From NCBI RefSeq assembly GCF_000691805.2, contig NZ_DF820487.1:1-64000 (forward strand): 64,000 bases of DNA, read 5' to 3'. The notes under the pieces were generated by a model. That model did not search any database, had not been told where the DNA came from, and was given only the letters and a program-made list of their open reading frames with translations. Positions 11,306-59,903 of the stretch are shown piece by piece. The translations under genes were made by a program, and so were the position numbers. The DNA comes from Weissella oryzae SG25 (GTDB taxonomy: Bacteria; Bacillota; Bacilli; Lactobacillales; Lactobacillaceae). Each line of letters starts with the position of its first letter. The stretch's first letter is position 1.

Positions 11306-11610
11306 ACCAAAAAAGGCGCTTAGGCCTATTGCATTTAATTATATTTAACCGTAAAATTATGACATGGCATTGCATTAGAGAGTATCTATAAAGACGACTT
11401 TAGCGAGTACATGGTTGGTGAGAATGTATGCGGCTTTATTTGAGAAGGTAGCTAATGGGCTGTGTTGGTGAATTAAGTGAGTAGCCACACCGTGTAAAAC
11501 GCGTTAAGTTTTTAATGAGATGGGGCTTTGACCTCAATTCAGGTGGTACCGCGAGTTAATTAGTCGCCCTGTTTATCTATGAATATAGATGAACGGGGCT
11601 TTTTATTTGT
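11306..11610 (+). ncRNA. T-box riboswitch for valS
   Basis: Leader RNA that senses uncharged tRNA-Val. The T-box AGGTGGTACCGCG is at 11541-11553; its TGG pairs with the tRNA CCA end and the following T suits a discriminator A. A Stem I terminal loop resembling GGTGAGAATG is near 11417. A valine codon GTA at 11448-11450 in GAGAAGGTAGC is a candidate specifier. The terminator runs from GCCC at 11566 to GGGGC at 11599 (with ATCTAT/ATAGAT near the loop) followed by TTTTT. The T-box overlaps the antiterminator alternative. Specifier identity is inference; the class is clear. Confidence 0.9.
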
Positions 11611-56050: not shown

Positions 56051-56079
56051 TTGACAAAGTAAATTAGAGCGTTTATCAT
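56051..56079 (+). promoter_or_regulatory. Promoter of the Trp leader and transporter operon
   Basis: -35 TTGACA (56051-56056), 17-base spacer, -10 TATCAT (56074-56079); transcription would begin about 35 bases before the leader peptide start. Confidence 0.8.
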
Positions 56080-56121
56080 TTAGCTCATAGAAATTTATTA
56101 AAGATTTAACAGGAGATTATT

Positions 56122-56166
56122 ATGAGTAAGCATATTTCACAATTAAATGGTTGGTGGCGCCGTTAA
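56122..56166 (+). CDS. Trp attenuator leader peptide
   Basis: Fourteen codons (MSKHISQLNGWWRR) preceded by AGGAG at 56111-56115, an optimal ribosome binding site. Consecutive Trp-Trp codons (56152-56157) followed by Arg-Arg sit inside the first hairpin. A leader this short, with tandem Trp codons, immediately upstream of hairpins and a terminator, is the classical arrangement for ribosome-stalling attenuation. It is too short to be an enzyme. Confidence 0.85.
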   Translation: MSKHISQLNGWWRR

Positions 56167-56299
56167 CACGGCCGGACTGTGAAATAAGCAGATTCGGTAC
56201 GTGCTCTTTTTAGAGCTCGCATATCGAATCTGTGCTGACATAAGGATTTCTTGAGAGGTCTGCACGGATACGTGCAGACCTTTTTGTTTTGTCTGCACG
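56134..56299 (+). promoter_or_regulatory. Transcription attenuator of the transporter operon
   Basis: Consecutive structures can be drawn. (1) ATTTCACA (56134-56141) with TGTGAAAT (56178-56185), enclosing the Trp codons and an inner hairpin GCCGT/ACGGC. (2) AGCAGATTCG (56187-56196) with CGAATC-TG-TGCT (56225-56236). (3) A perfect terminator GGTCTGCACG (56257-56266) with CGTGCAGACC (56271-56280) then TTTTT. An alternative pairing, GTGCTGAC (56232-56239) with GTCTGCAC (56258-56265), would block the terminator and compete with structure 2. A further GTCTGCACG copy at 56291-56299 could also compete for the terminator's 3' arm. Stalling at Trp codons would shift the balance; the exact logic is inferred. 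Confidence 0.8.
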
Positions 56300-56328: not shown

Positions 56329-57315
56329 ATGAACAAGAAGATTGTAGGAACTTTAGCAGTAATTGTAGCCGTTTTAGCTGGTGCCGGTATTTATTCAGGG
56401 GTTAATGCTCAAAAGGCTAAGGTGCCAACCGTTGGCGTCTTGCAATTTATGTCACACCCCGCCTTGGATCAAATCTATAGCGGAATTAAAGTTGGGTTAG
56501 CTGATTCTGGCTATAAAGTAGGCAAGGATGTGAAAATTGATTTTCAAAATGCCCAAGGAGATCAGAGCAATCTAAAAACAATGTCAACGAAGTTTGCTAA
56601 TGAAAAAGCAAATGTTTCAGTTGGAATTGCTACTCCAGCCGCAATTGCCGTAGCAAATACAGTTACTAGTAAGCCTGTGATTTTCTCGGCTTCAACCAAT
56701 CCAATTGGTGCAAAATTAGTTAAGTCATATAGCCACCCAGGTGGTAATGTTAGCGGTGTTTCTGACCAAGCTCCATTGGCTGCTCAATTAAAGATGATGA
56801 AGACTTTCATGCCTGATTTAAAGACGCTAGGAATTATTTATACTTCATCCGATGATTCAGCAACCACTGAAGCAAAAAAGATGGCTAGTTTAGCAAAAGC
56901 CGCTGGTATCGAAGTTAAGGAATACACGATTGCTTCTTCAAATGATTTGAATCAAACATCACTACAAATGGTTAATAATAACAACGTGCAAGCCGTCTTC
57001 GTACCAACTGATAACACTATTGCAGGAGCCTTCACAACGCTATTGAAAAATACCGATAATGCAAAGGTACCAGTATTCCCAACGGTTGATACGATGGTAA
57101 AGCAGGGCGGTGTTGCTGCTGAATCAATTAACGAAAAAGAAATTGGTGTTAAGACTGGTGAGATGATTGCCCAAGTCTTAAAGGGTAAGCAACCAGGCAA
57201 GATGCCAGTTGAATTTATGAAAAAGGGTAATTTGGTAATTAATAAAGCCGAAGCAAACAAGCTTGGTTTGACAATTCCAAATGAATACAACAAGGCAAAG
57301 ATTGTAGGAGAGTAA
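56329..57315 (+). CDS. trpX: Tryptophan ABC transporter substrate-binding protein
   Basis: 328-residue type-I periplasmic-binding-fold protein of the ABC_sub_bind (PF04392) group. N-terminal hydrophobic segment (about residues 5-24) but no lipobox cysteine, so it is anchored by an uncleaved helix or secreted. Conserved blocks: VGVLQFMSHPALDQ, STNPIGAKLV, SGVSD and FVPTDNT. AGGAGAAG precedes ATG 56329. The Trp-Trp leader upstream supports tryptophan or a precursor as substrate. First gene of a three-gene importer. Confidence 0.88.
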   Translation: MNKKIVGTLAVIVAVLAGAGIYSGVNAQKAKVPTVGVLQFMSHPALDQIYSGIKVGLADSGYKVGKDVKIDFQNAQGDQSNLKTMSTKFANEKANVSVGIATPAAIAVANTVTSKPVIFSASTNPIGAKLVKSYSHPGGNVSGVSDQAPLAAQLKMMKTFMPDLKTLGIIYTSSDDSATTEAKKMASLAKAAGIEVKEYTIASSNDLNQTSLQMVNNNNVQAVFVPTDNTIAGAFTTLLKNTDNAKVPVFPTVDTMVKQGGVAAESINEKEIGVKTGEMIAQVLKGKQPGKMPVEFMKKGNLVINKAEANKLGLTIPNEYNKAKIVGE

Positions 57316-57316
57316 G

Positions 57317-58219
57317 ATGCAGTTAATTATTTCAGCAATTGGGCAAGGCCTACTTTGGGCGACATTGGGGATTGGTTTATTTCTAACCTTTCGAATTTTA
57401 GATTTTCCAGATATGACAGTTGAAGGAACCTTTCCGCTTGGTGCGGCTACAGGCGTTACTTTAATTGCGCAAGGGATGAATCCCTTGTTAGCTAGTCTGC
57501 TGGCAGCCTTAGCGGGGGCCCTTGCTGGTCTAGTAACTGGTTTACTTTACACTAAAGGAAAAGTGCCAATTCTCTTAGCCGGAATTTTAACGATGACGGC
57601 AATTTATTCAATTAATCTCCGGATTATGGGGCAGGCTAATCGATCATTATTAGGCGTTCAAACGATTTTTTCTGGCTTAGGTTTAGACAAGCTACCACCT
57701 AATTATGCCGCCGTCCTAATCGGAACCGTTGTCATTGCGATTATCACAATCTTAGTTGCAATCTTTTTACAGACAGAACTAGGTCAAGCCTTTATCGTTA
57801 CTGGTGATAACAGGACGATGGCTCGCTCATTAGGGATTAATACTGATAGTATGACAATTTTGGGGCTAATGATTTCAAATGCTTTAATTGCTTTTGCCGG
57901 TTCACTTGTGGCACAAAATAATGGTTTTGCCGATGTAAACATGGGAATTGGCATTATCGTGGTTGCACTAGCTTCAATTATTATTGGTGAGGTTAGTTAT
58001 CCGGGTAACTTATCAATAACTAATCGCTTAATCACGATTATTATCGGCTCGATTCTATATCGTTTTGTTCTAGTGATTGTCTTAGCAATTGGCTTCTCAG
58101 CTAATGACTTAAACTTATTTAGCGCGGTAATTCTTGGCCTAGCCTTGATTTTGCCACAGCTACGTAAATTTTTCCGTTTGGAAAGCATTATTAAAAGAGG
58201 GGTGAATAGCCATGACTGA
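57317..58219 (+). CDS. trpY: ABC transporter permease, TrpY
   Basis: 300-residue membrane permease with about eight hydrophobic segments; motif LDFPDMTVEGTFPLGAA near residue 30 is typical of the permeases paired with PF04392 binding proteins. TGDNRTMARSLGI near residue 158 is the coupling-helix EAA-like loop. Overlaps the ATPase gene by eight bases. Confidence 0.88.
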   Translation: MQLIISAIGQGLLWATLGIGLFLTFRILDFPDMTVEGTFPLGAATGVTLIAQGMNPLLASLLAALAGALAGLVTGLLYTKGKVPILLAGILTMTAIYSINLRIMGQANRSLLGVQTIFSGLGLDKLPPNYAAVLIGTVVIAIITILVAIFLQTELGQAFIVTGDNRTMARSLGINTDSMTILGLMISNALIAFAGSLVAQNNGFADVNMGIGIIVVALASIIIGEVSYPGNLSITNRLITIIIGSILYRFVLVIVLAIGFSANDLNLFSAVILGLALILPQLRKFFRLESIIKRGVNSHD

Positions 58220-58982
58220 AATTGATGTAGCCTTAATTGATGCGACCGTAACTGTAAATGCTGGCCTAAGCAATGAAAAAAATATTCTTGACCATGTTTC
58301 TTTAGAATTGGCGGCGGGTGATTTTGTTTCAGTATTGGGCTCAAATGGTGCTGGAAAATCGACCCTCTTTAATGTAATTGCAGGAACCTTACCGCTAACA
58401 GGTGGCGAAATTCATTTAGGTGGGATTAATGTAACGCATTTATCAGAGACTGAACGAACAAAGTATCTGTCGCGGGTCTTTCAAGATCCTAAGTTAGGGA
58501 CGGCACCGCGGATGACTGTTGCTGAAAATCTATTATTGGCTGAAAGGCGTGGTCAAAGGCGCCGGTTACGTAACCGAAATTTGACTAAAGCGAAATTAGC
58601 CGAGTATGGTCAATTAACTGCTAAAATGGGTAACGGTTTGGATAGTCGGTTGAGTATGGCAACTGGTGATTTATCTGGTGGTCAAAGGCAAGCCTTATCT
58701 TTTCTAATGGCTACGCAAAGTCAGCCCAAGGTGTTGTTGCTAGATGAACACACCGCAGCGCTGGACCCAAAGACCTCAGCTCAATTAATGCAAATTACCG
58801 ATCAAAGTATTAAGGCTGCTAATTTGACGGCATTAATGATTACGCATGACTTAACAGATGCCCTAGAATATGGAAATCGGTTATTGATTATTGCAGATGG
58901 TAAGGTTGCTTTAGATGTAAGTGGTGCGGTTAAAAATAAATTAACCGTCACAGATTTATTAACTTATTTTAACCGCTATTAA
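58212..58982 (+). CDS. trpZ: ABC transporter ATPase, TrpZ
   Basis: 256-residue nucleotide-binding subunit. Walker A GSNGAGKST near residue 43, signature GDLSGGQRQALSF near 153, Walker B VLLLDEHTAALDP near 173 (His in place of the usual Pro in the D-E-P), and H-loop ITHD. Last gene; followed by a perfect terminator. Confidence 0.92.
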   Translation: MTEIDVALIDATVTVNAGLSNEKNILDHVSLELAAGDFVSVLGSNGAGKSTLFNVIAGTLPLTGGEIHLGGINVTHLSETERTKYLSRVFQDPKLGTAPRMTVAENLLLAERRGQRRRLRNRNLTKAKLAEYGQLTAKMGNGLDSRLSMATGDLSGGQRQALSFLMATQSQPKVLLLDEHTAALDPKTSAQLMQITDQSIKAANLTALMITHDLTDALEYGNRLLIIADGKVALDVSGAVKNKLTVTDLLTYFNRY

Positions 58983-59165: not shown

Positions 59166-59534
59166 ATGCAATATTGGAGACGCATATTAGCAGTTGGCTT
59201 TGGTGGCTTCTTTGGTGGGGCGTTGCGCGAGGCCATTGAATTATGGATGGCTGGGCCATTTCCGTGGGGAACAATCGTGATCAATTTAGTTGGTACCTTT
59301 ATTTCGGCTTTTTTGGTCATTCTTTTTGCGCATAAAATTGGTGTCGGACAAATAACATCTGATTTTGTTTTGGTTGGTATCTTAGGGGCCTTTACCACTT
59401 TTTCAACTGCCATCCTCGACATGGTAAAGCTTGGTCATATCTGGCCAGCACTAATGTATTTTGTAATTACCTTGTTAGGGGGCCTAGTTGTAGTAATTTT
59501 CGCCCGTAATCTAGCGCGAAAGGTGGTTGCTTAA
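59166..59534 (+). CDS. crcB1: Fluoride exporter CrcB/Fluc, first subunit
   Basis: 122-residue four-helix membrane protein. GGALREAI near residue 18, the pore-lining NLVGTF near 42 and the TTFSTA motif near 75 are family hallmarks. Fluc channels are antiparallel dimers, so two adjacent homologues point to a heterodimer. No fluoride riboswitch is visible upstream. AGGTAGGGG precedes the ATG. Confidence 0.92.
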   Translation: MQYWRRILAVGFGGFFGGALREAIELWMAGPFPWGTIVINLVGTFISAFLVILFAHKIGVGQITSDFVLVGILGAFTTFSTAILDMVKLGHIWPALMYFVITLLGGLVVVIFARNLARKVVA

Positions 59535-59903
59535 ATGCAATTAATATTATTGGCCGGTTTTGGAGCAATTTTCGGTTCGATTCTACGATTTTTACTCTTA
59601 GAATTAGGTGAACGTTATTTTGGTGAGGCAGCTAGCTGGATGGTTATGATTATTAACCTCAGTGCTTCATTTTTGATTGGAATTGCTTTTGCCTTACATT
59701 TGCAGTCTAGTATGAATGTTTTTTGGGCAACCGGTATTCTAGGGGGATATTCAACTTTTTCAGCACCAATTGTTGAATTAGCCGATGCCTTTGAACGTAA
59801 TGAACGTGGCGATCGGACCTTGATTGAAATTAAGACCCTTATCGCCTTTTTTGGGGGCTTAGTAATGTTATTTTTGGGGATTATTGTAGCAAAAACTTTC
59901 TAA
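59535..59903 (+). CDS. crcB2: Fluoride exporter CrcB/Fluc, second subunit
   Basis: 122-residue homologue starting right after the first stop. SILRFLLLE and the IINLSASF segment (Ser-Ala in place of the usual Val-Gly after Asn-Leu) with YSTFSAP near 75 give the same fold; charge distribution of the loops differs from the first subunit, fitting opposite insertion. Forms a heterodimer with crcB1. Confidence 0.9.
   Translation: MQLILLAGFGAIFGSILRFLLLELGERYFGEAASWMVMIINLSASFLIGIAFALHLQSSMNVFWATGILGGYSTFSAPIVELADAFERNERGDRTLIEIKTLIAFFGGLVMLFLGIIVAKTF

Follow-up and report, generated by a model that had tools for sequence, protein, structure and literature searches.

The sequence analysed here is a 64,000-nucleotide stretch of Weissella oryzae SG25 (referred to as the window), in which a short leader reading frame precedes three genes for an ABC importer. 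The elements that bear on the expression of the importer are as follows.

56051-56079, plus strand: probable promoter, TTGACA-17-TATCAT, 11 of 12 matches
56111-56115, plus strand: ribosome binding site AGGAG, serving the leader frame, from the sequence
56122-56166, plus strand: leader frame, MSKHISQLNGWWRR followed by a stop codon, 14 codons, Trp codons at 56152-56157
56329-57315, plus strand: trpX, substrate-binding protein (NCBIfam NF041285, TrpX equivalog; PF04392)
57317-58219, plus strand: trpY, permease (PF02653)
58212-58982, plus strand: trpZ, ATP-binding protein (PF00005)

Reading downstream from nrdF, one meets TTGACA-17-TATCAT, AGGAG and then the leader frame, whose DNA is ATG AGT AAG CAT ATT TCA CAA TTA AAT GGT TGG TGG CGC CGT TAA; 162 nt separate its stop codon from the trpX ATG at 56329, a start that was read by eye. 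The 14-codon frame with its WWRR, the AGGAG site, the nested hairpins and the terminator had all been described in an initial annotation made from the sequence, and each is present where it had been placed. As promoter-grade sites are expected by chance at 1.4 against the one found, only the strength and the placement of the site speak for a promoter; a promoter-like site (at least 9 matches) occurs at most 120 nt upstream in 14 of 26 leaders of the genus. The three-gene importer that the same annotation saw downstream is likewise there, and its proposal that the importer handles tryptophan gains from the TrpX protein, which passes the NCBIfam equivalog model with 432 bits against a cut-off of 390 (searched as 56332-57312). 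The leader is a short reading frame with a ribosome site, and its codons include those for tryptophan, which is what the operon supplies. None of 28 genus genomes contains an anthranilate synthase over the family cut-off, with weaker hits in 20, and import is therefore probably the main source of tryptophan in the genus. Beyond the importer, at 59166-59903 of the window, two small reading frames stand in tandem, which may represent a CrcB-type membrane pair.

The leader is conserved throughout nearly all of the genus. The nearest relative in our searches (G001) is 87% identical over most of the leader query and 89% in TrpX, and while TrpX is present in 28 of 28 genus genomes, the leader is present in 27. 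Twenty-six leaders were found by the letters TGGTGG, so that both Trp codons are given by the search; in all 26 an ATG lies exactly ten codons before these letters and a stop two codons after them, every frame having 14 codons of the form xxxxxx[QNK][LSF]N[GSNL]WWR[RSFI] before the stop. The Asn, the first Arg and both (searched-for) Trp residues are kept in 26 of 26, codons 2-6 vary, and a second ATG lies beside the start in L031, L046, L051 and L054. A lack of conserved Trp codons in related leaders, which would have spoken against the initial annotation, is thus not what the genus leaders display. The 27th genome, G004 (66% complete), has the leader and pieces of trpX in a rearranged form. 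By eye, L037 (in G019, 99% complete) is the sole genus case in which trpX has no leader frame, and the stretch upstream of it keeps a terminator-like hairpin. Second TrpX-like genes, 46% identical, occur in G013 and G025 (L057, L058) and have no WW leader.

The RNA of 56122-56299 folds at −73.3 kcal/mol, compared with −45.6 (sd 4.0) for shuffled sequences (z −6.9; 0 of 200 as low), and it can be divided into six segments.

56130-56141, plus strand: leader strand (segment 1), which by folding can pair with 56178-56189
56167-56181, plus strand: segment A, directly 3' of the leader stop codon; partner B
56189-56203, plus strand: segment B; partner A (antiterminating state) or C (terminating state)
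56220-56239, plus strand: segment C; partner B, or D through 56228-56239 with 56258-56269
56253-56269, plus strand: segment D; partner C (as 3' arm of the antiterminator) or E (as 5' arm of the terminator)
56271-56284, T-rich tail to 56289, plus strand: segment E, 3' arm of the terminator

The terminator (56253-56284) has 14 pairs and a T-rich tail, with one found against 0.2 expected, and no third hairpin follows D:E in the window. The pairing of 56232-56239 with 56258-56265, noted in the initial annotation as a possible antiterminator, is real and belongs to the longer helix 56228-56239/56258-56269, in which we counted by eye 11 pairs and one U-U mismatch. What that annotation did not include is the A:B pairing, the link from the antiterminator to the ribosome. 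The six segments can form either three stems (1:A, B:C and D:E) or two (A:B and C:D), a chain of the his type.

Folding of 23 genus sequences shows how these alternatives would respond to a ribosome. In these computations A was considered covered when the first 12 nt after the stop codon were removed, and the RNA either was whole or ended at D, before E. With the RNA ended at D and A free, 19 of 23 sequences have more A:B than B:C pairing (the exceptions are L039, L048, L049 and L052). With A covered, B:C exceeds A:B in all 23, and D:E forms in all 23 once E is present. When the leader carries no ribosome, pairing of the leader strand with A is seen in 22 of 23 (at least 4.8 expected pairs in these 22), yet A:B still exceeds B:C in L047, L050 and L051. 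Control sequences in which only A was shuffled have a mean A:B of 0.3 expected pairs, as opposed to 10.2 for the real sequences, and a C:D shift of −0.6, as opposed to 6.3. The flip goes beyond the A-shuffled controls at 0.05 in 21 of 23 sequences for A:B, 20 of 23 for C:D and 21 of 23 for B:C, the window among them; the C:D shift does not reach this level in L039, L051 and L052, and is small in L048 (0.6 pairs) and L049 (1.2 pairs). By computation, then, a terminator and a mutually exclusive antiterminator are coupled to the position of the ribosome.

Moving the ribosome edge along the window RNA places the flip. When the first base left free lies 39-48 nt from the ATG, 7.2-8.3 pairs are expected for A:B and 7.2-8.7 for C:D, and with this base at 51-57 nt the values are 0.1-1.0 and 2.4-3.3; B:C is retained with the edge at 33-36, and at 60-69 C:D climbs back to 4.7-8.7 because the cut approaches B. 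The flip falls between 45 and 51 nt in the mean of the 23 sequences, and between 48 and 51 in the window. From E. coli ribosome footprints, a ribosome with Trp codon 11 or 12 in its A site has its edge at about 42-45, and one at the stop codon at about 54-57, so the place of the flip agrees with what is expected for ribosomes at the Trp codons versus the stop codon. If the whole RNA is taken to equilibrium, the window prefers the terminator even where A is left free. The choice must therefore be kinetic and made before E is transcribed, in line with the current view of other attenuators.

The covariation search in related genomes that the initial annotation had proposed was carried out on an alignment (A1) of 23 of the 26 genus leaders, the near-identical copies L033, L034 and L036 being dropped, and compared with 500 shuffles that ignore the relatedness of the rows. 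In B:C and D:E together 91.2% of cells pair and 19 of 29 pairs are changed on both sides, with a score reached by 0 of 500 shuffles. For A:B the values are 85.0% and 8 of 15 pairs, the count being reached by 2 of 500 shuffles and the score by none. C:D alone pairs in 78.4% of cells with 5 of 11 pairs changed, and here the percentage is reached in 51 of the 500 shuffles, the pair count in 273 and the score in 69. A:B and C:D combined also exceed the shuffles, which is because of A:B, and all values drop when the partner is slid by 1-3 columns. Thus A:B, B:C and D:E covary in the 23 leaders, and the pairing of C with D is conserved with no covariation beyond the shuffles.

Leaders of this kind extend well outside Weissella. 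We examined 80 titled trpX loci of the Lactobacillaceae type, the best of 440, a sample that favours close relatives; 19 of the 80 are from the genus, and 79 have at least 300 nt upstream. An ATG frame of 10-20 codons with Trp in the last six and a ribosome site occurs at 69 of these 79 loci, compared with 2.1 expected from shuffles, and without the demand for a ribosome site the figures are 74 and 15.9. The initial annotation described an attenuator in a lactic acid bacterium, and although the kind of element is borne out, its confinement to one bacterium is not. Among the 74 leaders (one of which, L140, is probably the wrong frame) 48 have one Trp and 26 have two, the last Trp lies 2-4 codons before the stop, and the commonest ends are W-Q-S-R (26) and W-R-R (15). 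Of the 79 loci, L117, L126, L129, L133 and L141 have no such frame; by eye, trpX lies close behind another reading frame in the first four of these. Twenty of 49 leaders outside the genus have an identical run of 15 bases, TGGCAAAGCCGGTAA, able to pair downstream, and a pattern match finds a candidate helix between the leader stop region and a stretch after C at 24 of 49 loci. By eye, an intact trpX is missing from the few hundred bases after two leaders, L192 (QLNSSWQSR) and L193 (QLNHSWQSR), and in L193 a reverse transcriptase-like reading follows.

A covariance model of the genus leaders has matches at E 0.001 in 122 of 301 genomes of the family, spread over 25 of 40 genera, some of these matches being weak and away from trpX. 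With the limit set to 1e-5, 5 of 148 genomes of the order have a match, every one of them in Lactobacillaceae; since other Lactobacillaceae also go unmatched at this level, absence outside the family says little. A genome-wide search for the pair GCCGGTAA and TGCCGG was not specific enough, with matches in 37 of 201 genomes and several hits looking like coding sequence. An early family-wide test of the switch, on 65 of the 68 loci with leader and terminator, yielded an average shift of 2.3 pairs, compared with 0.05 for shuffles, and the shift exceeded 2 in 30 of the 65; it does not serve as proof, since a later hairpin was often taken as the terminator. L096-L100, L102 and Lentilactobacillus loci such as L110 have a third hairpin with a T-run after D:E, the 5' arm of which could take E as its partner; this would add two segments and keep the parity. 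An E:F test for such longer chains was mixed: 13 of 44 loci fall below 0.05, and the W. paramesenteroides group has six loci, all at or below 0.05 but from close relatives.

The same layout is also found with other codons. In the genus labelled g9, six loci in four genomes (L191, L199, L200, L277, L278 and L280) have leaders with N-I-R-L-R-S-[RQ]. L191 precedes a family-3 binding protein (PF00497), as do L200, L277, L278 and L280 by likeness of the first residues, and L199 precedes a family-5 binding protein (PF00496); our guess is that the amino acid sensed by the R-L-R-S-R leaders is arginine. Outside the window but in the same genome, on the minus strand of G000:C2:70611-70792, lies a candidate leader (L237) reading MFKSNVTLHHHLHR before its stop codon, with a ribosome site and a terminator; its H-H-H-L-H precedes a basic amino-acid antiporter (TIGR00905, over cut-off). 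The nearest other copies in its genus are at most 60% identical, and the five reading frames around it include nothing that explains a His leader. For five g9 leaders and L237, covering A (12 nt) lowers the upstream pairing of D beyond the A-shuffled controls at 0.05 in four of the six, among them L237 (p 0.04), at 0.06 in L278 and not in L191 (0.47). The notion that every hit of the RNA model is an attenuator was rejected, as a hit in G000:C12 with 34.5 bits has no leader frame, and therefore the 36-bit score of L237 does not by itself carry the His case.

Considering these data, we regard the Weissella leader as very probably a transcription attenuator coupled to the ribosome, through which the importer is produced when charged tRNA-Trp runs short. 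The translation-coupled attenuator of the initial annotation is supported by the conserved Trp codons, the covarying alternative helices (C:D by itself excepted) and the TrpX family model; the chain of segments is to be corrected to the six-segment his type. From the computed features, namely the reading frame, its conservation, the mutually exclusive helices and the place of the flip, we infer stalling, the decision of the polymerase and a response to tryptophan. When charged tRNA-Trp is scarce, the ribosome would pause at the two Trp codons and leave A free, A would pair with B, and C would become available for D, so that no terminator would form and trpXYZ would be transcribed. When tryptophan is plentiful, a ribosome at the stop codon would cover A, and B:C followed by D:E would end transcription. 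Were the leader untranslated, segment 1 could mask part of A, which would favour termination too.

That the hairpin is an ordinary terminator behind a chance reading frame, giving constitutive partial termination with no sensing, is very unlikely: intergenic terminators are common, but the late-Trp frames at 69 of 79 loci (best 80 of 440), the covariation and the computed flip all argue against it. Trp genes in Firmicutes are usually controlled by a T-box or TRAP, and one of these or another known Trp riboregulator might act here as well. A scan of all 4227 Rfam families at gathering scores finds a single family in the window, the T-box, whose one match (104.8 bits) is at 11361-11574, upstream of valS, and the Trp leader family, which we take to be RF00513, has no match at its gathering score. 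The source genome has 12 T-box (RF00230) hits, three of them over the gathering score. By family models the genes that follow are methionine synthase, valS, pheS, thrS, tyrS, ileS (a cut piece, below its cut-off), alaS, glyQ and hisS, along with two transporter-like proteins below cut-offs and one protein without a match; none of the genes named is a Trp gene. None of the 12 lies at the trpX leader, where a T-box domain would have contradicted the initial annotation, and no T-box at gathering score is present in 18 whole trpX loci (of 61 outside the genus). The TRAP gene, found in a B. subtilis control, is present in 0 of 28 genus genomes, and nowhere in the leader do three KAG triplets follow one another at a spacing of 2 nt. 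Control by a known riboregulator is thus extremely unlikely, even though the available text of PMC9382623 places a T-box before trpX in Streptococcus suis.

A further alternative is that the peptide itself is the sensor, free tryptophan causing the completed leader peptide to halt its ribosome at the stop codon, where the ribosome would cover A and favour the terminator. Such nascent-peptide sensing of tryptophan has a precedent in TnaC and would act in the same direction. In its favour, conservation in the genus goes beyond Trp (mostly Q-L-N-x-W-W-R), and the single Trp of 48 of 74 leaders (best 80 of 440 loci) is little for a starvation sensor. On the other hand, the TGGCAAAGCCGGTAA shared by 20 of 49 leaders outside the genus is able to pair downstream, so the RNA may be what is kept, and codon sensing accounts better for the two Trp codons in the genus and for leaders with different codons upstream of other transporters. 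On balance we consider peptide sensing improbable, and attenuation through the Trp codons the better account of the Weissella leader.

Taken together, the observations would fit a broader reading, to which we give about an even chance. A homologous, new family of attenuators would replace the T-box for Trp import in many Lactobacillaceae; one Trp codon would usually be enough, the chain would be lengthened in some lineages with the same logic, and the module would be adapted to other amino acids by a change of codons (R-L-R-S-R in front of other ABC importers, H-H-H-L-H in front of an antiporter of this genome), making it a codon-programmable cassette. A leader-peptide attenuator across a much-studied family of food bacteria would alter the T-box and TRAP picture of Trp sensing in Firmicutes, and it would tie TrpXYZ to tryptophan on independent grounds. 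It would also offer a set of natural variants, alike in their RNA chain but differing in codons, in sequence and in the number of segments, on which the minimum of sensor codons and the logic of long chains could be tested directly.

The survey of Lopatovskaya et al. 2010, cited in PMC4833913, may already list such leaders. In the literature searched, from which subscription journals were mostly absent, we found no report of a Trp leader peptide in Lactobacillaceae among the titles, abstracts and passages listed, which is weak evidence of novelty; the available portions of PMC9413887, PMC9382623, PMC2494555, PMC2965389, PMC1262725, PMC10989985 and PMC4833913 do not contain one. Expression of S. 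suis trpX, according to the text available, rises when tryptophan is limited (PMC9382623), and although the gene family is the same, its T-box binds tRNA directly and has no leader peptide. Leader-peptide attenuators in Firmicutes, as far as the available texts describe them, include those of hisS/hisZ in bacilli (PMC2965389), of the his operons in the B. cereus group, in C. difficile relatives and in Erysipelotrichales (PMC9413887) and of ilv in S. aureus (PMC5794164); some of them replace T-boxes, but they concern other amino acids and other lineages.

The trpL leader of E. coli resembles the Weissella leader in its 14 codons, its tandem Trp followed by Arg and 12 identical bases, window 56149-56160 being GGTTGGTGGCGC, the same bases as the trpL codons for Gly-Trp-Trp-Arg (a sequence found annotated as trpL). 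It differs in preceding biosynthesis genes, and the Weissella leader has no Rfam Trp leader match. The likeness in GWWR is probably convergence, because most other trpX leaders end in W-Q-S-R and the like. Moreover, trpL has four segments. The closer parallel in architecture is hisL of E. coli, where six segments likewise form three stems, the last being the terminator, or two alternative stems; the available text of PMC10989985 describes these as AB, CD and EF versus BC and DE, chosen by the position of the ribosome on a short leader. The present leader differs from hisL in its Trp codons, its importer operon and its occurrence in Lactobacillaceae. The proposed mechanism belongs to an established kind, the his type, and occurs here in a new setting; its breadth and variation are what seems new.
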